From: Geobacter sp. AOG2
Lineage (GTDB): Bacteria; Desulfobacterota; Desulfuromonadia; Geobacterales; Pseudopelobacteraceae
Assembly (NCBI RefSeq): GCF_019972295.1
Contig: NZ_BLJA01000001.1
Location: forward strand, 3,441,574 to 3,505,573
Length of the DNA: 64,000 nt
Direction: 5' to 3'
Below the pieces are notes generated by a model, which was not told the DNA's origin, searched no databases, and saw only the letters and a program-made list of their open reading frames with translations. The position numbers and the translations under genes are program-made. Shown here piece after piece: positions 21,832 to 35,338 of this stretch. Position 1 is the stretch's first letter, and each line of letters begins with the position of its first letter.

Positions 21832-22311
21832 TTACTTCACCGTGTACCAGAACTTGGCGCTGCGCACCTTGCCGTCGGCCAGCTTGAATTTGCACATCAC
21901 GCCGTACTTGCCCTTCTTCGCCAGGGTGAAATCGGAGCCGAAGCCCCCTTCCATGCCCATCAGGTCCTTGACCTGTTCGGATTTGCCCGGTCCCATGACC
22001 TTGATCTTTGCTTCGCCGCCGCTCATCATCTTTCCCGTTTTGGCGTCGGTGAACATCACCATGATGTGATGGGTTTCCTTCATCCCCATCTCCTTCATCT
22101 TTTTCTGGATGTCCATGACATTGAAGGTCGCCTTGACGCCGTCCACGACCTCTTCATGGACCTTTTTGCCCATGGACATCATGCCGCCGCCATGTTCCAT
22201 CTTCATGGAGCCGTGGTCCATGGGCATGGAATCGTGGTCCATGGCCGCGAAAGCCGAGGGGGCCGCCAGGGCCAGGGTTGCTGCTGCGAGGATCAGTAGT
22301 TGCTTTTTCAT
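21832..22311 (-). CDS. Met/His-rich exported protein, probable Cu/Ag-binding partner of the Cus system
   Basis: 159 aa. A signal peptide (1-22, ending AFAA) is followed by a metal-binding-like stretch of MDHDSM, MDHGSM and MEHGGGMM type. The rest, with TFNVMDIQKKM and KYGVMCKFKL, looks like a small beta domain for which I know no name. Position directly after cusA suggests a periplasmic Cu(I)/Ag(I) carrier, in the role CusF plays in E. coli, although it is not a CusF sequence homologue. AGGAGAA precedes ATG 22311. Confidence 0.75.
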   Translation of the reverse strand: MKKQLLILAAATLALAAPSAFAAMDHDSMPMDHGSMKMEHGGGMMSMGKKVHEEVVDGVKATFNVMDIQKKMKEMGMKETHHIMVMFTDAKTGKMMSGGEAKIKVMGPGKSEQVKDLMGMEGGFGSDFTLAKKGKYGVMCKFKLADGKVRSAKFWYTVK

Positions 22312-22372
22312 CGTTGTTCTCCTTTTGTTGCTGAGTAGTTTTTTTACTGCTTTAGGATCAACATCCGCCACA

Positions 22373-22510: not shown

Positions 22511-25500
22511 TCAATGCTTCATACCGCTGTATTTGAGTGTCCCCTTCCGAAGCTCCCTCTTCTTCATCAGCACGAAGATCACCGGCGTCATGATCAGCAC
22601 ATGCACTGCCGAGGAGATCATGCCGCCGATCATGGGGGCGGCGATCGGTTTCATCACGTCGGCCCCGGTGCCGGTGGACCACATGATCGGCACCAGGCCC
22701 AAAAGCGCCACGGCCACGGTCATGAGCTTGGGCCGCAGGCGGAGCACGGCGCCCTCGAAGGTGGCGTCGTAGATGTCCTGCTCCGTGCAGGGACCGTTGA
22801 TCAGTTTCCGGTCCAGGGCCTCGTGCAGGTAGATCACCATCACCACCCCGGTCTCCACGGCGATGCCGTAGAGGGCGATGAAGCCGACCCACACCGCCAC
22901 CGACAGGTTGTACCCCAGGGCCGCCACCAGGTAAACCCCGCCCACCAGGGCAAAGGGGACCGAGAGCATGACCATGCTGGCCTCCAGGGCCGAGTGGAAG
23001 GTGAAGTAGAGCAGGATGAAGATGATCAGCATGCCGGCCGGCACCAGCATCTTCAGGCGGGCCTTGGCTCGCACCTGGTTCTCCCACTGGCCGGACCAGG
23101 CCACGTAGTAGCCGGCGGGGAGCTTGAGCTGCTTTTCCAGTACCTCCTTGGCCTGGGTGACGAAGCCGCCCATATCGCGGCCGCGCACGTTGAGGAAGAC
23201 GATGGAGCGCAGCAGCCCCCCTTCGCTGTTGATCTCCGGCGCACCGGTGGAAATCTTGAGCTTGGTCACCAGCGACAGCGGCACCTGGGCGCCGTCGGCA
23301 CTCCCCACCAGGATCTGGCGGATGGCCGGGATATTGTCGCGGTAATCACGCTCGTAGCGGATACGGATCGGGAAGCGGTTCCTTCCTTCAACCGTGGTAG
23401 AAAGTGCCGACCCTCCCAAGGCGGTCTCGATCACGTCCTGAATGTCGCCCACGCTGATGCCGTACCGGGCCGCCGCCTCCCGGTCCACGTCGATATCGAT
23501 GTAGTTGCCGCCGGTGACCCGCTCGGCCACCACGTCCGCCGCACCGGGCACGGTCTTCAGTATCCCCTCGGCCTGCACGGCCAGGCTTTTCAGTACGTTC
23601 AGGTCGGAGCCGAAGATCTTGACCCCCAGGTCGGTGCGCACCCCGGTGGAGAGCATGTTGATGCGGTTGATGATCGGCTGGGTCCAACCGTTGCGCACGC
23701 CGGGGATCTGGAGCTTGGCGTCCAGTTCGGCCACGATGTCGGCCTTCTTCACCCCCGGCCGCCACTGGTCCTTGGGCTTGAGGATGATGATGGTCTCGAA
23801 CATGGAAACCGGCGCCGGATCGGTGGAGGTCTCCGCGCGGCCGACCTTGCCCAGGACATTCTCCACCTCGGGAACGCTCTTGATGATGGTGTCCTGCACC
23901 TGGATCAGGCGCTTGGCCTCGGTGATGGAGACGTTGGGCAGGGTGACCGGCATGTAGAGGAGCGACCCTTCATCCAAAGGCGGCATGAACTCGCTCCCCA
24001 TGTGCATGAACAGGGGGATGGCGATCCCCAGCGCCACCAGGTTGAGGGCAATGGTGGTCTTCTTCCATTTCAGCACCCAGCGGATGACCGGCGAGTAAAG
24101 CCGGATGAAGAAGGAGGAAACCGGGTTGGCGCTCTCGGGCGGCATCTTGCCGCGCATGAAGTAGTACATCAGCACCGGCACCAGGGTGATGGCGATCATG
24201 GCCGAGCCCATCATGGAGAAGGTCTTGGTGAAGGCCAGGGGATGGAACAGCTTGCCCTCCTGTCCTTCCAGCAGGAATACCGGCACAAAGGAGAGCACGA
24301 TGATGGCCAGGGAAAAGAAGATGGCCCGGCCCACCTGTTTGGCGGAGGTAATGATCACCTCCAGGTGCCGCTCCTTCCTCTCCTCCGGGGGCAATTCGGA
24401 AAGGTGGCGGTAGCAGTTCTCCACCATGATGACACCGGCGTCCACAAGAACGCCTATCGCTATGGCGATGCCTCCCAGGGACATGATGTTGGAGGTGACC
24501 CCCATCAACTTCATGGTGATGAACGAGATCAGCACCGCGATGGGGAGGGTCAGTACGATCACCAGGGCGCTCTGGAAATGGAGCAGGAATACCAGGATCA
24601 CAAGAGAGACCACGATGGATTCCTCGGTCAGGGCCCTTTTCAGGGTCTCTATGGCCCGCTCGATCAGGTCGGAGCGGTCATAGGCGACCTTGATCGTCAC
24701 CCCCGGAGGGAGCCCCTTCTCAAGGGCGGTGATCTTCTCCTTGACCCGGTCGATGACGTCCTTGGCGTTTTCGCCGTAGCGCATGACCACGATCCCGCCC
24801 ACGGCCTCTCCCTGGCCGTTCTCGTCCAGCAGGCCGCGCCGGATGGCGCCCCCCATCTGGACCGTGCCCAGGTTTCTGACGTAGATCGGGGTGCCGCGCA
24901 TGTCGGCCCCGACCACGATATTCTCCAGATCGGCCACGGATTTCACGTAGCCCTGGCCGCGTATCAGGTATTCGGCGTCGGCCTGCTCGATCAGCCTGCC
25001 CCCCACGTCGTTGTTGGAGCGCTTGACCGCCTCCATCACCTGGCCGATCTTCATGTTGTAGGCGAACAGCTTGTTGGGGTCCAGATCGATCTGATATTCC
25101 CGGACATAACCGCCGATGGAAGCGACCTCGGCCACCCCCTGAACGGTGTTCAACTGGTAGCGCACGAACCAGTCCTGCAAGGTGCGCAACTGCTCCAGAT
25201 CGTACCCCTTGCCCTCGACGGTGTACCAGAACACATGTCCCACCCCGGTGCCGTCCGGGCCAAGCGTCGGCACCACGCCGGCGGGCAGCAGGGAGGCGGC
25301 GTAGTTGAGGCGCTCCAGAACGCGGGTTCGAGCCCAGTAGATGTCCGCCTTGTCCTCGAAGATCACGTAGATCATGGAGAAGCCGAAGGCCGACGAGGCG
25401 CGCACCGCCTTGACCTGGGGCAGCCCCTGCAGGTTGACCGCCAGGGGATAGGTGACCTGGTCCTCCACCACCTGGGGCGAACGGCCGGGGTAGTCGGTGA

Positions 25501-25648
25501 ACACGATCACCTGGTTGTCGGACAGGTCCGGGATGGCGTCCACCGGGGTCTTGTACACCGACCAGACGCCTAAGGCTATGATCAGGGCAAAGATCATCAG
25601 GACGATGACGCGGTTTCTGGCGGAGTATTCGATGATTTTTTCGATCAT
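22511..25648 (-). CDS. cusA: CusA-type heavy-metal efflux RND pump
   Basis: 1045 aa, full RND length, with 12 TM helices in the usual 1+5+1+5 layout. It pumps Cu(I)/Ag(I) from the periplasm and inner membrane through CusB and CusC. Three methionines known in E. coli CusA to bind Cu(I)/Ag(I) have clear counterparts here: in LLYMPVTLPN, in PAPVSMFET and in RINMLSTG. The TM4 segment GVLVDAGVIMVEN carries the proton-relay acidic residues. The first residues MIEKIIEYSARNR are family-typical. It sits 165 nt behind cusB, with hairpin repeat C between them. Confidence 0.93.
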   Translation of the reverse strand: MIEKIIEYSARNRVIVLMIFALIIALGVWSVYKTPVDAIPDLSDNQVIVFTDYPGRSPQVVEDQVTYPLAVNLQGLPQVKAVRASSAFGFSMIYVIFEDKADIYWARTRVLERLNYAASLLPAGVVPTLGPDGTGVGHVFWYTVEGKGYDLEQLRTLQDWFVRYQLNTVQGVAEVASIGGYVREYQIDLDPNKLFAYNMKIGQVMEAVKRSNNDVGGRLIEQADAEYLIRGQGYVKSVADLENIVVGADMRGTPIYVRNLGTVQMGGAIRRGLLDENGQGEAVGGIVVMRYGENAKDVIDRVKEKITALEKGLPPGVTIKVAYDRSDLIERAIETLKRALTEESIVVSLVILVFLLHFQSALVIVLTLPIAVLISFITMKLMGVTSNIMSLGGIAIAIGVLVDAGVIMVENCYRHLSELPPEERKERHLEVIITSAKQVGRAIFFSLAIIVLSFVPVFLLEGQEGKLFHPLAFTKTFSMMGSAMIAITLVPVLMYYFMRGKMPPESANPVSSFFIRLYSPVIRWVLKWKKTTIALNLVALGIAIPLFMHMGSEFMPPLDEGSLLYMPVTLPNVSITEAKRLIQVQDTIIKSVPEVENVLGKVGRAETSTDPAPVSMFETIIILKPKDQWRPGVKKADIVAELDAKLQIPGVRNGWTQPIINRINMLSTGVRTDLGVKIFGSDLNVLKSLAVQAEGILKTVPGAADVVAERVTGGNYIDIDVDREAAARYGISVGDIQDVIETALGGSALSTTVEGRNRFPIRIRYERDYRDNIPAIRQILVGSADGAQVPLSLVTKLKISTGAPEINSEGGLLRSIVFLNVRGRDMGGFVTQAKEVLEKQLKLPAGYYVAWSGQWENQVRAKARLKMLVPAGMLIIFILLYFTFHSALEASMVMLSVPFALVGGVYLVAALGYNLSVAVWVGFIALYGIAVETGVVMVIYLHEALDRKLINGPCTEQDIYDATFEGAVLRLRPKLMTVAVALLGLVPIMWSTGTGADVMKPIAAPMIGGMISSAVHVLIMTPVIFVLMKKRELRKGTLKYSGMKH

Positions 25649-25669
25649 GGGGAGAAAACCTTATCTTCT

Positions 25670-25801
25670 GCCACAGAGACGCAGAGACACAGAGAATCAC
25701 AGAGAAAAACAAAAATCTTTTGCGTAAATCGTCGTTAGAATTGCTGTCTTTTGTTTGCCGTACTCCTGCTTTTCTCTGAGCCTCTGTGGCTCCGTGGCAA
25801 A
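25670..25801. repeat. Long intergenic hairpin repeat, copy C
   Basis: Left arm CCACAGAGACGCAGAGACAC and right arm GAGCCTCTGTGGCTCCGTGG are inverted. It fills the gap between cusB and cusA inside the efflux operon. Confidence 0.83.
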
Positions 25802-25813
25802 ATAGAATTCAAA

Positions 25814-27217
25814 TCACATCTTCATATCGTCCATCTTCAGCGAATCCTTCTTTGCCGGTGCCGGGGCCGGTGTCGTTGGCGCCGGTTTCTTGTCGTCCAT
25901 CTTCATGCCGGGCATGGCTTCCGAGCCGCCGCCATTTCCCTTGAGCTGCGACTCCGAGTCGATCAGGTAGGCACCGGAGACCGCCACCTTGTCCCCCGGT
26001 TTGAGGCCGGAGATGACCTGCACCCGGTCGTCGGTGCGCTGGCCCAACTGCACGTCCCGCGGTTCGAACATGCCGGGAGAGGTCTCGACCCAGGCCACCT
26101 GACGCTTACCCGTATCCATCACCGCCGTGACCGGCACGACGATGGCCTTGCCCAACCCCACCTTGATCGACGCCCGCACGAACATGTCGGGTTTGAGCTT
26201 CATGCCGGGGTTGGCCATCTCCACCCGGGCCTTGACCGTCCTGGTCTTGGGATCGAGGAAGGGATAGATGAAGGCGATCCTGCCGCTGAAGGGCTTGCCG
26301 GGGAAGGACTGGGACTGGATCTCCACCCTCTGCCCGATCTTTATGTTGGGGAATTCGTTCTCGTAGACCTCGACCTCGACCCATACCCTGGAGAGGTCGG
26401 CGATATTGAACAACACGTCGCCGGTATTGACGTACTGCCCCTGCTGGACCATCTTGTCGATGACCACCCCCGACAGGGGCGTGTAGATCGGCAGGCGGAT
26501 GTTGGGCTTGCCGGCCCTTTCCAGTTCCGCTATCTGGCTCTCCTTGACCCCGTACAGCATCAGGCGCTGCTTGGCCGACTGCACCAGTCCCTCGCCGTTC
26601 TGGGAGATGGCGGGGATCGGCGAGTTCTTCAACTGGCCGCGGCTCTTCACCGCCAGCAGGTATTCCTGCTGGGACGACAGGAGATCGGGAGAATAGACTT
26701 CGGCCACCGGCCTGTTTTTGCCGACGTAGGCGCCGACCTCGCTGACGTTGAGCTTGTCGATGCGTCCGGCGATCCAGGCCGTTACCTTGGCCTGGCGCGT
26801 CTGGTCGTACTGCACGATGCCCACGGCGTTGATCTCCTTGTTCATATCTTCCAGCCTCACCTCCATCGTGGCCACGTTGGCCATCACCCGCTGGGTCGGC
26901 GAAATGGAGACATTGCCGAGCATCGCGGCCTGCTTCTTCTCCGCCGCGGTCTGGGTGGTGGCGGCCTGGGCGTCGTTGATCTTCTTGATCAACTCCATGC
27001 CGCAAATCGGGCAAACCCCCGGCTTGTCCTTGATGATGAAGGGGTGCATGGGGCAGGTGTACAGCGGTTTGGCGCTCATCTCCTGTTTGGCCGTGCCGTC
27101 GCTTTTGGTCCAGCCGTTCACCTTGTTCAGCTTGCCGCTTTTGTACAGCCAGCTGGCGACGACGATGGCAAGTACCAGAAGGGTCAGGGGGAGGGTAATC
27201 TTCTTGTTCAGGGCCAT
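25814..27217 (-). CDS. cusB: CusB-type membrane fusion protein
   Basis: 467 aa periplasmic adaptor. An N-terminal TM anchor (about 10-25) is followed by the heavy-metal-binding motif YTCPMHPFI...CPICGMELI (about 53-78), typical of CusB and related pumps. A barrel-sandwich domain, a coiled coil and an MFP beta barrel follow. The last 40 residues are Met/Asp/Lys-rich (MPGMKMDD, KMDDMKM), another likely Cu/Ag site. It links CusA to CusC and transfers metal to the pump. It lies 74 nt behind cusC. Confidence 0.92.
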   Translation of the reverse strand: MALNKKITLPLTLLVLAIVVASWLYKSGKLNKVNGWTKSDGTAKQEMSAKPLYTCPMHPFIIKDKPGVCPICGMELIKKINDAQAATTQTAAEKKQAAMLGNVSISPTQRVMANVATMEVRLEDMNKEINAVGIVQYDQTRQAKVTAWIAGRIDKLNVSEVGAYVGKNRPVAEVYSPDLLSSQQEYLLAVKSRGQLKNSPIPAISQNGEGLVQSAKQRLMLYGVKESQIAELERAGKPNIRLPIYTPLSGVVIDKMVQQGQYVNTGDVLFNIADLSRVWVEVEVYENEFPNIKIGQRVEIQSQSFPGKPFSGRIAFIYPFLDPKTRTVKARVEMANPGMKLKPDMFVRASIKVGLGKAIVVPVTAVMDTGKRQVAWVETSPGMFEPRDVQLGQRTDDRVQVISGLKPGDKVAVSGAYLIDSESQLKGNGGGSEAMPGMKMDDKKPAPTTPAPAPAKKDSLKMDDMKM

Positions 27218-27291
27218 TTTTTGTCTCCGTAGGGCTAACGTTCGTGTCTGCCCGGTAATAGGCGCCTATAAGAGGCGCCCCGCCATGATAG

Positions 27292-28572
27292 CTATTTGTT
27301 CGACAACTCCACGCCGACCATCGCCTCGAGCTGCGCCATCCGTATCTGGTACTCGGCCAGTGATTCGTAATAGTCCCGCTCGTAATTGAACAAGGTGGTC
27401 CGGCTGTCCAGCAGGGTCAGAAAATCCACCTTGCCGACCTTGTAGCCGATGATCGCCGATTCCAGGGACTGGTCCGCCTGGGGGATGATGCCGCTCTTGT
27501 AGAGGTTCGCCAGTTTGCGGCGCTTGTCGAGTTTTGCGATCAGGTCGGAGATGCCGGCATCGATGCTGTTTTTAAGGCTGTTCAAGTCCTGGCCGGCCAT
27601 GTTGGTTGCGGAATTCGCTTCCGCCACCATGGCGTGGCGCCGCTCCCGCCGCAGCGGCAGGTTGAAGGTGACGCCGAGGCTGTACATATCGGCCCCGTCG
27701 CTGCCCATGGCCGGATCGCGCTGCATGTATTCCATGGAGACGTTGAAATCGGGATACGACTCCTTTCGGGCCAGCTTGCGTCCCGCTTCTCCCTTGTCGA
27801 TGAGCGCCTTCAGGCTCTTGATCATGGGGCGGTTGTCATTGGCCGTCTTCCGCAACGACTCGGCCGAAAGGGTCACCGGCCTGATCTCGAAGTCGGGGAT
27901 TTTGCCCACCGGGGTTTCCGCCGGACGCGCGAGCAGGGCGTTGAGGGCCGCCTCAAGGCTCGTGCGCTGTTGTTCCAGGGAGATCCTCATGTCCAGTAGT
28001 TTGGAACGCTCGACCTGGGACTTGAAAACGTCCTGCTGCGTACCCTGGCCGACGGAGTACCTGGTTTCGGCAATGGTAATGAAATCGTCGAGTATGTGGA
28101 TATTTTTGTCCACAATCTCCAGGGACTTGTCGGTGAAGTAGATCTCATACCAGGTCTCCTTCACCATGCGGGCCAGTTCCAGTTTCCGTTCCTCAACCTG
28201 CCAGCGGTACGACTCGGCATCCTTCTGCGCCATCTCTTCCTTCAGTCCCCGCTTGCCCCAGAACGGAATCTGCTGGGAAAGCCCGATCACCTTGCCGGTC
28301 ATGGCCTCCTTGCTGAAATTGAGGGGGTCGTTCACCACGCCGTTCTGGATCTTGAGCATCAGCATTGGGTCGTCCAGGGAACCTGCCTGGGCGATGCGGT
28401 TTTTGAACATCGTCCAGCGTGCTTCGGAGGACTTCAGGTCGGGGTTGTTCGCCAGGGCGGTGTTCACCAGTTCAGGGAGATTTTCCGCCGGTTTGGTCTC
28501 CCCGGCGCGGCTGAAGCCCGCCGGAAGCATGGCGGTGGCGAGCAGGGCAAGAAGGGCGATGCGGGTTTTCAT
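27292..28572 (-). CDS. cusC: CusC-type outer membrane efflux protein (TolC family)
   Basis: 426 aa. A signal peptide (about 1-22) is followed by two TolC/OEP repeats, with long helices such as LPELVNTALANNPDLKSSEA and a second repeat from about 215. It forms the outer-membrane channel of the CusCBA pump. I chose ATG 28572 after AGGCTCCTT. It is the first gene of the operon, whose promoter (28614-28630) and upstream palindrome (28700-28728) resemble a sigma-54 unit. Confidence 0.9.
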   Translation of the reverse strand: MKTRIALLALLATAMLPAGFSRAGETKPAENLPELVNTALANNPDLKSSEARWTMFKNRIAQAGSLDDPMLMLKIQNGVVNDPLNFSKEAMTGKVIGLSQQIPFWGKRGLKEEMAQKDAESYRWQVEERKLELARMVKETWYEIYFTDKSLEIVDKNIHILDDFITIAETRYSVGQGTQQDVFKSQVERSKLLDMRISLEQQRTSLEAALNALLARPAETPVGKIPDFEIRPVTLSAESLRKTANDNRPMIKSLKALIDKGEAGRKLARKESYPDFNVSMEYMQRDPAMGSDGADMYSLGVTFNLPLRRERRHAMVAEANSATNMAGQDLNSLKNSIDAGISDLIAKLDKRRKLANLYKSGIIPQADQSLESAIIGYKVGKVDFLTLLDSRTTLFNYERDYYESLAEYQIRMAQLEAMVGVELSNK

Positions 28573-28613
28573 AAGGAGCCTCGGTGTTTGTTTCGTGGTC
28601 ATGCTTCAATCTG

Positions 28614-28630
28614 TTTCAAGGGGTATGCCA
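28614..28630 (-). promoter_or_regulatory. Candidate sigma-54 promoter of cusCBA
   Basis: On the minus strand it reads TGGCAT-ACCCC-TTGAAA, against a -24/-12 consensus of TGGCAC-N5-TTGC. The -24 GG is present; -12 has GA in place of GC. The same 17-nt layout, including AAAC after the -12, occurs before the HMA gene at 32407-32423. Confidence 0.6.
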
Positions 28631-28697
28631 AAGATGCAATATACCGATTATACAGCGGTTGTTTGCGATGTACAGCGAGTGAGGCGGTTAAAGGTTG

Positions 28698-28732
28698 TGG
28701 AATATCCTACAGGGGTGGGAGTATATTCTCCA
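28698..28732 (-). promoter_or_regulatory. Candidate enhancer palindrome upstream of cusC
   Basis: GAATAT and ATATTC flank a 17-nt spacer that starts CC and contains CAGGGGTGGG. Its centre is about 84 nt above the promoter, the usual range for NtrC-type activators. A close match is at 32504-32531. Confidence 0.6.
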
Positions 28733-28760: not shown

Positions 28761-28902
28761 ATCCGCCACAGAGACACGGAGACGCGGAGGTTCACAGAGA
28801 AAGGCAAAAGCGAGAGAGAAAGAAAAATCCTTTGATTTCACCCCAAAAGGTATTGGTTTTCTCTCTGCTTTTCCTCTGTGTCTCCGTGTCTCTGTGGCGG
28901 AT
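28761..28902. repeat. Long intergenic hairpin repeat, copy D
   Basis: Left arm ATCCGCCACAGAGACACGGA and right arm GTGTCTCTGTGGCGGAT are inverted. It lies between the end of the NtrC-type regulator gene and the cus promoter region, and may end or insulate the regulator transcript. Confidence 0.87.
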
Positions 28903-28920: not shown

Positions 28921-30285
28921 CTATTTTTCCGGCGGGATGATGCCGTATTTCTCCATGCGGTAGATGAGGGTATGGCGCGGGATGCGCAGAAAACGGGCCG
29001 CGGCGGTCTGATTCCAGTGGTTGCGCTCCAGGGCCGCCACCACCACCTCGTGCTCCAACTGTTCAAGGGAATAGCCATCGGGGGGGAGGTTGATCACCGC
29101 CGCTGCCCCGGATGGCGCGCCGTTCCCGAAGCGGATCTTGTCCGGCAGGTCCTCGTGCGTGATGGTATCCCCGTTGCGCATGATCAGGAGGCGTTCCACC
29201 GTGTTCTCCAGTTCCCGTACGTTGCCGGGCCAGCCGTAGTTCACCAGCGTATCCAGTGCCGGGCGGTCGAAGCCGACCTGGGGGCTGCCGTGCTTGGCGC
29301 AGAAATAGCGGAGCAGGAGCGGTATGTCGTCCGGCCGTTCCCGCAGGGGGGGGAGGTGGATCGGGATAACCGAAAGCCGGTAGTACAGGTCTTCCCGGAA
29401 GGTGCCCTCGCCCAGCGCTTTTTCCATGTCCAGGTTGGTGGCGGCCACCAGGCGCACGTCCAGCTTGTGGGCCGTGGTCCCTCCCACCGGCTCCACGACC
29501 TTCTCCTGCAAGGCCCGGAGCAGCTTGGGCTGCAATTCCAGGGGCAACTCCCCAACCTCGTCCAGGAACAGGGTGCCCCCCTCGGCCAGTTGGAACCTGC
29601 CGGTCTTGTCCTTCACCGCCCCGGTGAAGGACCCCTTGACGTGGCCGAACAGCTCGCTCTCCAGAAGGTCGCGGGGGATGGCGGCACAGTTGATGGCGAC
29701 GAAAGGCGCATCCCTGCGTCCGCTGTGGGCGTGGATCGAGCGGGCCACCAACTCCTTGCCGGTGCCCGATTCGCCGGTGATCAGCACCGCCGCCTCGCTG
29801 TCGGCCACCTTGCGGACGATGTCGAAGACCCGCTCCATCTGCCGCGAGGCACCCACGATGGTGCGGAAGTCGGAACGGTCGGCAAGTTGGTTCTTCAGGC
29901 GCTTGTTCTCGGCGGCCAGGCCGGTGAATTGCAGGGCCTTGCCCACGGTCAGCCGGAGTTCGTCCCGGTTGAACGGCTTGGTGATGTAGTCGTAGGCCCC
30001 CAGTTTCATGGCCTCCACCGCGATATCCACGGTGCCGAAGGCGGTGATGATCATCACCAGGGTCTCGGGCGACCGCTCCTTGACGGCCTTCAACACCTGG
30101 AGCCCGTCCATGCCGGGCATCTTCATGTCGGTGATGACCAGGGCGGGCGCTTCCTCCCCGAACAGCCGCAACCCCTCCTCGCCGCTGGCCGCGGCAACTA
30201 TCTGGTAGCCGGCCTCCTGGAGGTTGTATTCCAGCACCCGCCGGAGCGAGGTGTCGTCGTCGATGATGAGGATTTTGGGTTTCAT
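28921..30285 (-). CDS. NtrC-type sigma-54 response regulator, probable activator of the metal efflux genes
   Basis: 454 aa. A receiver domain (1-120; acceptor Asp in VITDMKMPG) is followed by an AAA+ domain (Walker A GESGTGKE, sigma-54 loop GSFTGA with Ser in place of the usual Ala, Walker [11 protein letters not shown]) and a Fis-type HTH at the end ([24 protein letters not shown]). It activates sigma-54 RNA polymerase when phosphorylated. The kinase gene lies just upstream on the same strand and the cus operon just downstream, an arrangement like ZraSR. ATG 30285 overlaps the stop of a 21-codon frame and has a weak ribosome binding site. Confidence 0.9.
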
Positions 30286-30347
30286 GGTTGGGGCATCCCG
30301 GTTTCGAGAATTCGTGCGCATACCAGATTGTTAAATACGGCCCTCAT
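30282..30347 (-). pseudogene. 21-codon frame, possible remnant of a PIN toxin gene
   Basis: ATG 30347 overlaps the stop of the antitoxin-like gene (ATGA), and its own TGA overlaps the ATG of the NtrC-type gene. It encodes MRAVFNNLVCARILETGMPQ plus one Pro. The MRAVF start resembles the first strand of PIN-domain toxins (M-[RK]-AVFDTN), but the active-site Asp is absent and the frame ends at 21 residues. It could be a decayed toxin or a coupling leader peptide. Confidence 0.35.
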
Positions 30348-30644: not shown

Positions 30645-31733
30645 CTACATCGCCGGCAGCCTGACAATAACCGTCGTCCCTTTACCAACCTCGCTCTCCA
30701 TCTCCAGCATGCCGCCATGGGCCTCGATGATCTTTTTCGTTATGGCCAGGCCCAGACCGGTGCCGTCCGGCTTGGTGGTGAAGAACGGCTCGAAGACTCG
30801 GGCCAGGGCACTGGCCGCTATCCCCGGACCGCTGTCGCTGAAGCGGATCTCGTACAGGGAGTCCGTCTTTTGGGTGGCGATGGTAATGGTGCCCCCCTCC
30901 GGCGTGGCCTGCAGGGCGTTGATGACGATATTCAGGAAGGCCTGGCGCAGCTTTTCGCCGTCGGCGTTGACGAAGATATCGGCGGCGGGCGGCTCCAGGG
31001 TGAGCTTGATCTTGCGGGCTCTGGCATCGTTGGCGGCGAGGGTGGCGATGGTCTCCAGCTCTTCCCGCAGGGAACAGTGCCGCATCTCCGCCGGTTGGGG
31101 GCGGGCCATGCGCAGGAATTCCTCCACCACCCGGTTCAGCCGCTCGGTCTCCTTGATCTGGATCTCGATGAACTCGTGCTTGGGGTCGCCGGGCCGGTAG
31201 TCGTCCCGCAGGATCTCGGCCGTGCCGCGGATGGAGCCCAGGGGGTTCCTGATCTCGTGAGCCAGCACCGCCGCCATCTCCCCCATGGTGGAGAGCCGCT
31301 CCGCCCGGCGCAACTGCTCCTCGACGGTCATGATCCGCTGCGACTGGGCTTGCAGCTTGTTGTAGGATTCCTCCAGCCCTCGGGCGGTCCGCTGGAGTTC
31401 CAGGCTTCGGGTGCGCTCCCGCTGCGCCAGGAGCCCCGTGACGCCTCCCACCACATTATACATGACGATCTCCAGGTACTTCTCCATCTCCAGGGTCAGA
31501 CCGCCGCCCCACTGGAAGAGGATGTGAGGCGCGTACACCAGACTGACCGTCAGGGAACAGAGCAAGCCGCCCCGGAAACCGAACCAGAGCGCGGCCAGGA
31601 TGATCGGCAGGTAGTAGAACCGCTGAAAGATGTCGTGCAGATAGTGGAGGTGCAGCGGGGTCAGGTAGTGGAGCAGGCTGATGCCAAGGATGGAGAGGCC
31701 CAAAAGGCCGATGCGCAGGATGGTTGATTTCAT
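30645..31733 (-). CDS. Membrane sensor histidine kinase paired with the NtrC-type regulator
   Basis: 362 aa. The first 105 residues contain about four TM helices (ILRIGLLGLSILGISLL, YYLPIILAALWFG, GLLCSLTVSLVYAP and one more) with almost no periplasmic loop. A coiled stretch follows, then HisKA with the phospho-acceptor in LAHEIRNPLGSIRG and an HATPase domain (NIVINALQA, DSGPGI, GTGLGLAI). This is the AtoS/NtrB-like kinase group. Unlike ZraS it lacks a large periplasmic sensor, so it may sense metal within the membrane; that is inference. Confidence 0.88.
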   Translation of the reverse strand: MKSTILRIGLLGLSILGISLLHYLTPLHLHYLHDIFQRFYYLPIILAALWFGFRGGLLCSLTVSLVYAPHILFQWGGGLTLEMEKYLEIVMYNVVGGVTGLLAQRERTRSLELQRTARGLEESYNKLQAQSQRIMTVEEQLRRAERLSTMGEMAAVLAHEIRNPLGSIRGTAEILRDDYRPGDPKHEFIEIQIKETERLNRVVEEFLRMARPQPAEMRHCSLREELETIATLAANDARARKIKLTLEPPAADIFVNADGEKLRQAFLNIVINALQATPEGGTITIATQKTDSLYEIRFSDSGPGIAASALARVFEPFFTTKPDGTGLGLAITKKIIEAHGGMLEMESEVGKGTTVIVRLPAM

Positions 31734-31930: not shown

Positions 31931-32347
31931 CTATTCGGGTTTCGTACCCGATTCGCACCAGATGCAACCGCCTGACCGGGCTGCGCCAGCCGTGCCGAAA
32001 TCCTTGCCGGTCATCTGCCGGTATCGATCCGGCGTCACCACCTGCTGCACGGTGCTGTCGAATCCGGCCTTTTTAACATTCTCCGCCAATATCTCCGGTT
32101 TGACCGCTTTGGTGTCGTACCCGACGATGACCCGCCCGCCGTCCAGGTCCACCTGGGTCGAGGCAACCCCCCGGACACCCTGCAACACTTCACAGATCTT
32201 GTCTGCGCAGCTTCCGCAGGTCATGCCCGCCGTCTTCAGGACGGCCACCGAGTCGGCGGTTGCCCCGGTCCTGACACGTACCGCCAGGGCCGCAAGGAAC
32301 AGTATGGCGGTCAAGATGAGGGTCGTATTTATGATGCTGTTTTTCAT
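31931..32347 (-). CDS. Membrane-anchored heavy-metal-associated (HMA) domain protein
   Basis: 138 aa. An N-terminal TM segment or signal (about 8-24) is followed by an HMA domain with GMTCGSCADKI (CxxC metal site, about 41-51) and the usual ferredoxin-like fold (VDLDGGRVIVGYD). The C-terminal tail adds SGGCIWCESG, another CxxC. It probably carries Cu(I)/Ag(I) or Hg(II) in the periplasm, like MerP or CopZ-type chaperones. It has a sigma-54-like promoter at 32407-32423 and shares a palindrome with the cus operon. Confidence 0.85.
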   Translation of the reverse strand: MKNSIINTTLILTAILFLAALAVRVRTGATADSVAVLKTAGMTCGSCADKICEVLQGVRGVASTQVDLDGGRVIVGYDTKAVKPEILAENVKKAGFDSTVQQVVTPDRYRQMTGKDFGTAGAARSGGCIWCESGTKPE

Positions 32348-32406
32348 ATTCGCTCCATCCGGAAGTATGCGGCTATTTCACCGGTCGCCCCACGGTATTT
32401 TGCCGG

Positions 32407-32423
32407 TTTCAAAGAGCATGCCA
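32407..32423 (-). promoter_or_regulatory. Candidate sigma-54 promoter of the HMA gene
   Basis: On the minus strand it reads TGGCAT-GCTCT-TTGAAA followed by C, the same layout as the cusC promoter. It lies 60 nt above the HMA start. Confidence 0.6.
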
Positions 32424-32498
32424 GTGGCGTTGCGTCGTTTAACATGCTTGAATTATTTGTAAATAGTGCAATGGCTGCCGGTGGAATGTATTTTGCGT

Positions 32499-32536
32499 AT
32501 GAAGAATATCCGTCAGAGGTGTGGAATATTCTTCAT
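32499..32536. promoter_or_regulatory. Candidate enhancer palindrome between HMA and Cys-rich genes
   Basis: ATGAAGAATAT and ATATTCTTCAT form an 11-bp inverted repeat with a 16-nt spacer (CC at its start, CAGAGGTGTGG within). It matches the cusC upstream element. The centre is about 94 nt above the HMA promoter, one helical turn more than at cusC. The rest of the 277-bp gap 32348-32624 holds the HMA promoter and a weak sigma-70-like TTGACA at 32585. Confidence 0.62.
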
Positions 32537-32624
32537 CTGGGGATGTGCATCAACAAGGCCTGCTGTACCGCCGACGATTAATCGTTGACAGGAGCGCCTG
32601 AATTCTATACGAAGTGAACCAGTC

Positions 32625-32972
32625 ATGCGTCACCCTGTCTATTATCCATTCGCCATCATCGTGATGGCCCTGTATCTGCTCTTGCCGGCCCGGGCTCTGG
32701 CCCACTGCGACGCCCCTGAGCCCTGCGCTGCCGGGACGCTGGTCGTGCAGGTCGCCGACGATGCACCGTGCGGTTCGTGCCCCTGTTCGGGCGCGCCGCA
32801 CGGCGATTGCTGCGAAAGCGCCTGTTGTTGCCCCTGTCACGCCCCTTTTGGCCAGCGCGTCACCATCACCTATTCACCCATGGTCACGTTCCAAAGCAGC
32901 CCTGAAATCCTCGAGGAACTACCCCAGGTCTATCTTCCCATCTTCGTACCTCCGCAGAACCATACCGCCTGA
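32625..32972 (+). CDS. Small cysteine-rich exported protein
   Basis: 115 aa, family not recognised. A signal peptide (1-26, core AIIVMALYLLLPA, end ALA) precedes a Cys cluster: HCDAPEPC, APCGSCPCSG, then DCCESACCCPCH. The C-terminal 40 residues have no cysteine. It is divergent from the HMA gene and shares the GAATAT palindrome region, so a metal-binding role is plausible. An alternative is an extracytoplasmic Fe-S or disulfide protein. No strong ribosome binding site; AAGTGA lies upstream of ATG 32625. Confidence 0.62.
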   Translation: MRHPVYYPFAIIVMALYLLLPARALAHCDAPEPCAAGTLVVQVADDAPCGSCPCSGAPHGDCCESACCCPCHAPFGQRVTITYSPMVTFQSSPEILEELPQVYLPIFVPPQNHTA

Positions 32973-33110
32973 TCCGGCCATCCATCGGGATGCTGCACCC
33001 CGCTTCCGCATTCCATCCCGTGCAGCTATCGCTTACATCACGAAATTCCTCCGTTGCGTTCACCTTGTGGCGTCCGCGGCAGAGGATATACAATAAAGGA
33101 GTATGTCAAC

Positions 33111-34490
33111 GTGACAACCAATCAGCGTGGTTTTCTGAACTCACTATGGAATTTTTTCTGTTCCCTGACGCTTACCATGTTCCTGCTCATCACCCTGGCG
33201 ATCACCTCGATCATCGGGACGATCGTCCCTCAGGGCCCGCCGCCCCAGGAGTATCTGCAGCAGATAAGCCCCTTTAAATTCAAGCTGTACCAGGCACTGG
33301 GCTTCTTCGACATGTATCATTCCTGGTGGTTCATCCTGCTGCTCTACCTGCTGACGGTCAATCTGGTCGCCTGTTCCATCAAGCGCCTGCCCCACATCTG
33401 GAAGATCATCACCCGGCCGGTGACGATACTGGACAACGGGCTGGAGAGGTCGCTTGCCAACGTGGTCTCCTTCAAGGCTCACGGCGCCCCGGAGAAACTT
33501 CAGGAGCAGGTGGCGGCCTTTCTTGCGGCCGAGTTCGCCGCGCCGGTGGCGACGGAGCGTGACGGCGCCCGGCACCTGTTCGCCCAGAAAACCCCCTGGT
33601 GCCGCCTTTCGGTCTACTTCGTCCATCTGAGCGTCATCGTCATCTTTATCGGCGCCATCGTGGGCTCGTTCTTCGGCTATAAGGGCTTCGTCAATATCAT
33701 GGAGGGCGACAGCATCTCCAAGGTGACGACCCGCTCGGGCAAGGATATCCCCCTCGGCTTCTCGGTGCGTTGCGAGAAGTTCAGCGTCTCCCTGTACGAC
33801 AGCGGCGCACCCAAGGAGTTCAAGAGCGTCCTGACCGTGCTGGAGAACGGCAAGCCGGTGCCGGGTTACGAGCACAAGTCGGTCATCGTCAACGATCCGC
33901 TGACCTACAAGGGGATCACCTTTTACCAGTCCAGTTACGGTAATGCCGGAGAATGCCGTTTTCTGGTCACCGACCTGGACGGCAAGAACGCCGTCCCGGT
34001 GACGGTGCCCGCCGACGGCTCGGTGACCTTGCCAGACGGCAGCAGCATGCATGTGCTTGAGACCACCCCGGACATCGCCCCCTATTCCCCCGGCCTCTCC
34101 GGCCCGGCGGCTCACCTGGAGATTCACACCTCCGATGGCCGTTCGGAGCGGGTGGTCGTCTACGCCAATCACCCCGAGTTGAACCTCGCCCATGCCAAGG
34201 AGCACGGCAAGGGTCCGGTCTTCTACTTCAAGGGCGAAGAAAAACGGATGTACACCGGCCTGCAGGTGGCGAAGGACCCGGGTGTCGGGATTGTCTGGCT
34301 CGGCTGCCTGCTCATGGTGGTAGGCATCTTTGCCGCATTCTTCCTGTCCCACCGCCGCGTCTGGGTGCGGATTCAGCAGGGGACCGTCACCATGGGCGGC
34401 AACGCCAGCAAGAACCAGGCGGCCTTCCAGCAGGTCTTCGAACAACTGGCCCAAAAACTCAAAACGGAATGCTCGGGGGAGAAAAGATAA
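33111..34490 (+). CDS. resB: Cytochrome c biogenesis protein ResB (Ccs1)
   Basis: 459 aa. Three N-terminal TM helices ([43 protein letters not shown] and one at about 180-205), a large extracytoplasmic domain and a last TM (about 400-425) give the ResB topology. With CcsB it moves haem across the membrane and ligates it to CxxCH of apocytochromes c (system II). I chose GTG 33111 after AAAGGAG; longer frames upstream have no site. It overlaps ccsB (TAATG). Confidence 0.9.
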
Positions 34491-35338
34491 TGACAAGCTC
34501 ACTTCTGTTCAATGTCACCACCTTTGCCTATCTCGTCTCCATGCTGCTGTTCTTCGCCTTTCTCGCCAGCCGCGCCGCGGCGCTCGGCACGGCCGGCATC
34601 GTGACCGCCTATGCCGGTCTTGCGGCCCAGAGCGGGGCGATCCTGCTGCGCTGGAAGGAGTCCTACGACCTGGGGTTCGGGCACGCCCCCCTGTCCAATC
34701 TGTACGAGTCGGTGGTCTTCTTCTCCTGGACCATCGTGCTGATCTTTGCCCTGCTCGATCTCAAGTACAAATACCGGGTCATCGGCGCCTTTGTCATGCC
34801 GTTTGCCCTGTTGGGCATGGCCTGGGCCCAGCTCGGGCTGCACAGCGGCATCGAACCGCTGGTCCCGGCGCTCCAGAGCAACTGGCTCCTGTACCACGTC
34901 GTCACCTGCTTCTTGGGCTACGCGGCCTTCGCCGTGGCCTGCGGCATCTCCATCATGTACCTGATCAAGTCGGGCGGCGAAGAACGGGCCGACGCCTCTT
35001 CGGGCCTCATGGCCCTCTTTCCCCCCATCAGGGTCCTGGACGATCTGAACTACCGGGCCATCATGGTCGGCTTTCCGCTCCTGACCCTGGGGATCATCAC
35101 CGGCGCGGCCTGGGCCAACTACGCCTGGGGCACCTACTGGAGCTGGGACCCCAAGGAAACCTGGTCCCTGATCGTCTGGTTCGTGTACGCAGCCTTCCTC
35201 CACGCCCGCTTCACCAGAGGTTGGGTCGGGAAAAAGGCGGCCTGGCTCTCCATCATCGGTTTTGCCGCCACCATCTTCTGCTACCTGGGGGTCAATCTGT
35301 TCCTGTCCGGCCTCCACAGCTACGGCGGGGGGAGGTAG
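34490..35338 (+). CDS. ccsB: Cytochrome c biogenesis protein CcsB (ResC/CcsA type)
   Basis: 282 aa with about eight TM helices. The tryptophan-rich haem-handling motif [13 protein letters not shown] near residue 230 is complete, and conserved histidines lie in the flanking helices ([14 protein letters not shown]). It partners ResB in haem delivery. ATG 34490 shares its first base with the resB stop, and GGGGGAGAAAAG lies upstream. No terminator is seen; the next transcript has its own promoter at 35350. Confidence 0.93.

Follow-up and report, generated by a model that had tools for sequence, protein, structure and literature searches.

A cysteine-rich exported protein at the head of a resB-ccsA operon in Geobacter: a probable metal-sensing leader of the CutF/CruR design

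Background

Two described leader proteins, CutF of Rhodobacter capsulatus and CruR of Bordetella pertussis, offer the closest points of comparison for the gene discussed here. CutF is an exported protein with a cysteine-containing CxxxC motif and a C-terminal proline motif that is encoded upstream of cutO; its target is a multicopper oxidase, a stem-loop covers the Shine-Dalgarno sequence, and it acts in cis (PMC9973294). CruR is a DUF2946 protein that is described as unstructured, ends in a RAPP tail and lies upstream of bfrG at a distance of 162 nt; it shuts off a TonB-dependent transporter (PMC9426467), and a figure legend of the same paper gives the spacing between the Cys motif and the PP as conserved among DUF2946 proteins. 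In both cases copper is reported to be sensed via the cysteines of the nascent exported protein and the proline motif to act on the ribosome, resulting in control of the next gene in cis, with copper not acting in the same direction in the two systems (PMC9973294, PMC9426467). CutF-like proteins have been collected with filters for fewer than 150 residues, a PP in the last 15 residues, a signal peptide and a gene on the same strand no more than 1000 nt away; the same paper presents CzcI as being devoid of a C-terminal proline motif and labels a SilD in the legend of its network figure (PMC9973294).

In the main text of PMC9973294 the terms ResB, Geobacter and Desulfuro- are absent, and the synteny section of PMC9426467 names neither ResB nor cytochrome c biogenesis. 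Among the papers listed by a literature search at the level of titles and abstract openings, none reports ResBC as the target of such a leader. Here we describe P0001, a small cysteine-rich protein which, judged by analogy with CutF, CruR and CopL, probably acts as an upstream regulatory ORF, in other words a leader protein that senses metal for a resB-ccsA operon in the way they do, and not as a periplasmic metal store.

The leader gene and the resB-ccsA operon

The P0001 gene (32625..32972, + strand) is located in the window, i.e. the whole 64,000-nt stretch of Geobacter sp. AOG2 DNA that was analyzed, where it is the first of a co-directional run with resB and ccsA. Comparison with three congeners (L045-L047) yielded dN/dS values of 0.181, 0.163 and 0.146, which mark it as a translated and constrained gene; P0001 is a conserved coding gene under purifying selection. 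The three congeners have the start codon and reading frame in common with the window, and likewise a TTGACA-containing block immediately 5' of the gene (32580..32624, + strand). This block is almost invariant across the four genomes and could tentatively represent a promoter (TTGACA at 32585-32590 and TATACG at 32606-32611), though a consensus promoter scan did not call it as one.

The sequence-only reading of this region had proposed a 115-aa ORF whose product has a signal peptide, about 14 cysteines and no recognizable family. The ORF is present as described and its product begins with a hydrophobic segment; the cysteines, by contrast, number 11 (residues 28, 34, 49, 52, 54, 62, 63, 67, 68, 69 and 71). 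At E <= 1 P0001 is without a match in Pfam or NCBIfam, in agreement with that reading, and its affinity to the CutF/CruR class is one of design only. The signal peptide region comprises residues 1-26 (32625..32702), with a hydropathy of 2.54 over 14 residues and a probable cleavage site, placed by eye, between ALA and HC. Residues 6-24 are predicted to form a helix in an AlphaFold model that is disordered beyond this signal helix (mean pLDDT 53), and no credible match emerged among the solved structures with which the protein was compared. All 11 cysteines are contained in a Cys/His region spanning residues 28-72 (32706..32840), for which the dN/dS against the three congeners is 0.16-0.24 (0.15-0.18 for the whole gene), indicating purifying selection. 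The protein ends in FVPPQNHTA, with the PP at residues 109-110 of 115; the FVPPQN tail and the stop codon (32943..32972), including the PP codons CCTCCG (32949-32954), constitute a putative translation-arrest motif.

The leader gene is followed after a gap of 138 nt (32973..33110), with the Shine-Dalgarno sequence AAGGAG at 33096-33101, by resB (CcsB; 33111..34490, + strand; PF05140, 3.1e-107) and then by ccsA (ResC; 34469..35338, + strand; PF01578, 2.5e-54). The presence of both the ResB and CcsA domains in these genes places them in cytochrome c biogenesis system II, in which ResB-CcsA attaches haem to the CXXCH thiols of cytochromes c. The sequence-only reading had overlooked this link to resB and ccsA.

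Distribution and genomic contexts of the family

A search with P0001 at E <= 0.01 recovered matches in 81 of 97 genomes, the window's own included. A 53-member profile matched 73 of 146 genomes of the class at E <= 0.001, with nine of these 73 lying outside the window's order (best E 3.9e-14), while across the phylum it matched 8 of 198 genomes, three of them beyond the class and weakly. The family set considered below consists of 130 members, namely those found in 120 fetched stretches together with the window, the weakest matches of the search having been left out; all 130 belong to the window's order. Two of the loci (L151 and L154), although they come from genomes of different families within the order, encode identical leader proteins in matching surroundings, pointing to recent transfer or to contamination.

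Contexts were assigned by tblastn with the window proteins. By this approach 61 of the 130 members are found upstream of genes for CusC, CusB or CusA (Cus-type), 42 lie within 700 nt upstream of ResB (ResB-type), 38 of these being also accompanied by CcsA, and a single member precedes CcsA only. The other contexts (26/130) include among their neighbours TerC, a cation-efflux protein, GDT1 and FtsX/MacB. Altogether, 103 of the 130 precede cus or resB genes, and for 98 of these 103 a downstream start was found by a rule that may have misplaced some of them; the gap from leader to next gene centres at about 120 nt in both ResB and Cus contexts. The P-II protein (PF00543; e.g. 8910-9248 in L092) is a further recurring neighbour, found at position +4 in 10 loci under greedy ORF calling.

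In a quick tree of the leaders the window protein falls within a group of 30 rows, all ResB-linked, with a support of 80 (not starred), and the context labels require 11 changes as against 56 in shuffles, many forks of this tree being weak. The genome of the window contains five stretches that match the ResB model, with two long places among the matches listed, and one match to the leader profile. Twenty ResB paralogs picked by hand as leaderless from among the ResB matches listed yielded no family member upstream (best E 0.18); one ORF (L216) situated 305 nt from a leaderless ResB passed a crude Cys-plus-PP filter and was taken as a chance occurrence. A quick ResB tree unites 18 of the 20 leaderless paralogs in one branch with a support of 100, and places the 41 led ResB outside of it, in more than one branch and with two unled ones among them. 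Since the led ResB fall outside the branch of these 18 paralogs, the leader goes with particular ResB lineages. As a separate observation, the leaderless ResB of L211-L216 are preceded by a reading frame with multihaem-like CH...CKECHK motifs at its end.

Conserved features and affinities of the leader proteins

The members share a common build, in which a hydrophobic N-terminus (a signal as judged by hydropathy in 124/130) is followed by a core of Cys and His residues and, at the C-terminus, by an F-x-PP tail. Nearly all are shorter than 150 aa (129/130) and have the PP inside their last 15 residues (128/130), and P0001 is typical in all of these respects. The tail displays the strictest conservation: PP is present in 130/130, the F in 124/130 and the Q in 105/130 members, and a [FY]-[VIA]-PP signature is found in 125 of 129. 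Its extended form PPQN (78/129) is distributed over 38/42 ResB-type, 23/61 Cus-type and 17/26 other leaders. The PP is followed by exactly four residues in 100 of the 130 members and by five in 14, including P0001. In the core, two cysteine columns are near-invariant (123/130 and 126/130), these being the only such columns among the 11 cysteine columns of P0001, and a C-H pair is seen in most members (86/130 and 90/130); the number of cysteines per member ranges from 1 to 12. In 99 of 129 members the last cysteine lies 38-40 residues before the PP, the distance in P0001 being 38, whereas a count of core-Cys spacing of 119/129 is biased, as it considers only cysteines lying 33-46 residues before the PP. 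At 38-40 residues from the PP codons, the last cysteine would lie near the exit of the ribosomal tunnel.

Taken together with the operon position, these features fit the CutF/CruR leader class at the level of design. Like CutF, P0001 is a short exported Cys protein with a C-terminal proline motif encoded by the first gene of an operon; unlike CutF, which targets a multicopper oxidase and has a stem-loop over the Shine-Dalgarno sequence, it precedes cytochrome c biogenesis genes and no extra occlusion was found for it (see below). With CruR it shares the conserved Cys-to-PP spacing, the PP near the C-terminus, the long gap, the poorly structured nature and the position at the head of an operon, but it ends in FVPPQN instead of RAPP and has no match to DUF2946 (PF11162). 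That model matches 6 of 53 relatives weakly (best E 7.2e-5), and a search of 57 genomes with it returned no match above the Pfam cut-off. P0001 has the four properties used to collect CutF-like proteins (length, PP position, a signal peptide by hydropathy and a same-strand resB at 138 nt) and lacks both the DUF2946 score and the RAPP tail, and is for these reasons regarded as probably working like CutF and CruR without being a DUF2946 protein.

Other named families are more distant. The CopL family (NF033807) is similar in being composed of proteins named as metal-binding and regulatory, and matches 6 of 53 relatives weakly (best E 3.1e-7), but it does not match P0001, and the three of these matches that were examined in detail all fall below the curated cut-off of 40 bits, with a best score of 31.1. 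SilD of pMOL30 resembles the family in its signal peptide, its Cys and His residues, its proline-rich C-terminus and its location directly upstream of a TolC-type gene and efflux genes; nevertheless, its alignment to the family profile is confined to the signal peptide (probability 19.7). CzcI (NF045614) is comparably a small protein encoded upstream of an RND efflux operon, but leaves P0001 unmatched and reaches only 1 of 53 relatives, at E = 0.047.

Proposed mechanism and alternatives

Under the preferred interpretation, the leader would be translated and exported, with its C-terminal tail slowing or arresting the ribosome. The cysteines emerging from the tunnel, at 38-40 residues from the PP codons, would bind a thiophilic metal, with Cu(I) as the likeliest candidate, and the length of the arrest would change as a result. 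Copper is suggested as the ligand because of the Cus neighbours and the published relatives. The stay of the ribosome at the end of the leader would then decide between two outcomes, namely a stop to expression by Rho or RNA structure in the next ~120 nt, and expression of resB-ccsA. Such a device might serve to tune one particular ResBC pair at times when the assembly of cytochromes c in the periplasm is endangered by metal, in bacteria dependent on many multihaem cytochromes.

Two versions of the final step can be envisaged. In the first, as in CruR, the ribosome's stay would determine whether Rho can reach the C-rich gap, and metal would thereby set transcription into resB-ccsA. The composition of the gap, which in the window shows an excess of C over G and is rut-like, favours this route, with the CutF occlusion route being less supported, and we rate the Rho route as having close to an even chance of being correct. 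The C over G skew of 84 leader gaps has a mean of 0.161 and is positive in 80, as against a mean of 0.03 and 56 positive values among 109 control gaps between other co-directional genes at these loci, taken from simple ORF calling (p = 5e-11; here and below all p-values are optimistic because the family sequences are related); the skew upstream of the leaders is -0.036. The gap length is also comparable to the 162 nt of cruR-bfrG, and the conserved Cys-to-PP spacing has its parallel in that stated for DUF2946 proteins (PMC9426467). Nevertheless, the skew indicates Rho loading only weakly, the control depends on simple ORF calling, and the F-x-PP-Q-N tail is not the RAPP of CruR.

The second version, which we consider rather unlikely although its protein design is as in CutF, holds that copper slows the export of the nascent leader and that the slowed ribosome opens an mRNA structure over the resB start region. 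Folding was assessed for 83 of the 98 leaders with a downstream start (84 for skew), the others having been dropped by limits on gap and Shine-Dalgarno. In the free mRNA the Shine-Dalgarno sequence is no more occluded than in shuffles (probability of being unpaired 0.317 versus 0.311 in ResB-type and 0.234 versus 0.199 in Cus-type leaders), and on this measure the CutF stem-loop model is not supported as such. Masking the leader end does, however, free the resB Shine-Dalgarno of ResB-type leaders beyond shuffles (gain 0.111 versus 0.029, p = 0.0012), with no significant gain in the Cus type (p = 0.45). Furthermore, the anti-Shine-Dalgarno sequence CCTCC is enriched at the PP codons of ResB-type leaders (20/42, versus 179/890 PP pairs elsewhere, p = 0.00013; Cus-type 8/61, other 13/26), although the CCTCC of the window is replaced by CCCCC in the three congeners. 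In a consensus fold of the four congeners, ten pairs of mostly unchanged letters join columns 14-29, in the tail of the leader, to columns 177-188, which surround the start codon of resB. These pairs show zero compensatory changes, the covariation term for the whole fold is unfavourable (+1.44), and ten ResB-type leaders taken from other genera yield no consensus fold (-1.13 kcal/mol). The fold of the window RNA is itself ordinary (z -1.08), and an Rfam scan returned nothing above the gathering score, its best hit (E = 0.15) lying in the leader region but on the opposite strand.

Beyond these two versions of the leader model, the sequence-only reading had suggested that P0001 may be a periplasmic metal sponge. 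In such a role the mature 89-residue Cys-rich protein would accumulate in the periplasm, bind Cu(I)-like ions and protect the ResBC haem ligase as a sponge or chaperone. Part of that proposal stands, in that the link to metal is borne out: the family is not clearly one of loci unrelated to metal or of unconserved cysteines, since 61 of 130 members lie beside metal-efflux genes of the Cus type and the two core cysteines are conserved as described above, with 42 members heading resB and 26 in other contexts. The hydrophobic N-terminus, the 11 cysteines and the purifying selection on the Cys region would also suit a sponge. The sponge role itself is unsupported, because what is best conserved is the cysteine-free F-x-PP tail, along with its spacing, and because the gene is located ahead of cus or resB in 103 of 130 cases. 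The widely varying number of cysteines and the paucity of near-invariant columns among those of P0001 further argue against it, and it does not account for why the gene comes first or why a long C-rich gap follows it; we accordingly judge it improbable. A last reading, that ResB-linked leaders monitor cytochrome c assembly itself, with a Cys-Cys-x-Cys-His-like core serving as a decoy of the haem-attachment motif whereby the nascent chain reports, in feedback on resBC, whether ResBC or a metal blocking ResBC engages CXXCH thiols (an arrest sensor for the haem ligase, as SecM is for SecA), draws on the occurrence of CXXCH in 9/42 ResB-type versus 0/61 Cus-type leaders (p = 0.00018, kinship ignored; 1/26 in the other contexts), but appears very doubtful given that the motif is absent from 33 of the 42 ResB-type leaders.

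If the metal-sensing leader model is correct, the control exerted by such leaders would extend beyond metal transporters and cuproenzymes to the machinery for haem attachment to cytochromes c. It would directly link metal stress to a particular ResBC pair in Geobacterales, which are noted for their many multihaem cytochromes, and would suggest a reason for the retention of several ResB copies in these genomes. It would also imply a small regulatory unit acting in cis; most members of the family to which it belongs lack a relevant match in Pfam or NCBIfam.

The divergent HMA gene, the cus locus and their palindromes

On the other side of the P0001 gene, and divergent from it as the sequence-only reading had stated, lies a gene for an HMA-domain protein with a hydrophobic N-terminus (31931..32347, - strand; PF00403, 1.1e-13). 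A neighbourhood with cus genes is seen in the 61 members noted above, whereas a divergent HMA gene accompanies only 4 of 130 members, namely those of the window and its three congeners in one genus, and a partnership with HMA as a functional unit is thus rejected.

The same reading had noted a palindrome shared by this intergenic region and cusCBA. Both copies are present, one at 32504..32531 (GAATATCC-N12-GAATATTC) and a close copy upstream of cusC at 28700..28728 (GAATATCCTACAGGGGTGGGAGTATATTC), and they are better explained as activator sites of the HMA and cusC genes. They lie upstream of sigma-54-like elements by 81 bp in the case of HMA (a -24/-12 element, TGGCATGCTCTTTGAA, 32408..32423, - strand) and by 70 bp in the case of cusC (TGGCATACCCCTTGAA, 28615..28630, - strand), and the two elements share the letters TGGCAT and TTGAAAC. 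In the three congeners TGGCAT and TTGA of the HMA element are kept and the half-sites of the palindrome at 32504-32531 are unchanged, with a spacer 2 nt longer. The sigma-54 scan used a weighting of our own, and dozens of other sites in the window score as high as the two elements or higher, so that the case depends on the shared position, the shared letters and, for the HMA copy, conservation in the congeners. Likewise, the first palindrome pattern has one match in the window against 0.40 expected, and a loose pattern is found at three distinct places genome-wide, but as the reversed control gives 5 and 4 hits, the rarity of the palindrome proves nothing by itself.

Between the cusC and HMA genes are encoded an NtrC-type response regulator (28921..30321, - strand; PF00072, PF00158, PF02954) and a sensor histidine kinase (30645..31733, - strand; PF00512, PF02518). 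The palindromes are probably sites at which this regulator activates the sigma-54-like promoters of cusCBA and HMA; CusR-type regulators are usually of another kind. Use of the palindrome as an operator of P0001 is disfavoured by the location of both copies 70-81 bp upstream of the cusC and HMA elements, though an additional effect on P0001 is conceivable.

The cus genes themselves occupy 22511..28602 on the - strand (cusC 27292-28602, cusB 25814-27217 and cusA 22511-25648), and cusCBA and HMA apparently have in common both a promoter of the sigma-54 type and a palindrome upstream of it (28615-28728 and 32408-32531). Downstream of cusA a 179-aa Met/His-rich protein is encoded (21832-22371, - strand), which has no Pfam match and NCBIfam matches at chance level only, and is perhaps a periplasmic copper carrier. 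The interval between cusC and the regulator gene additionally contains an inverted repeat at 28761-28902, consisting of CACAGAGACACGGAG units, with arms of 30 nt that are 93% complementary and 82 nt apart.
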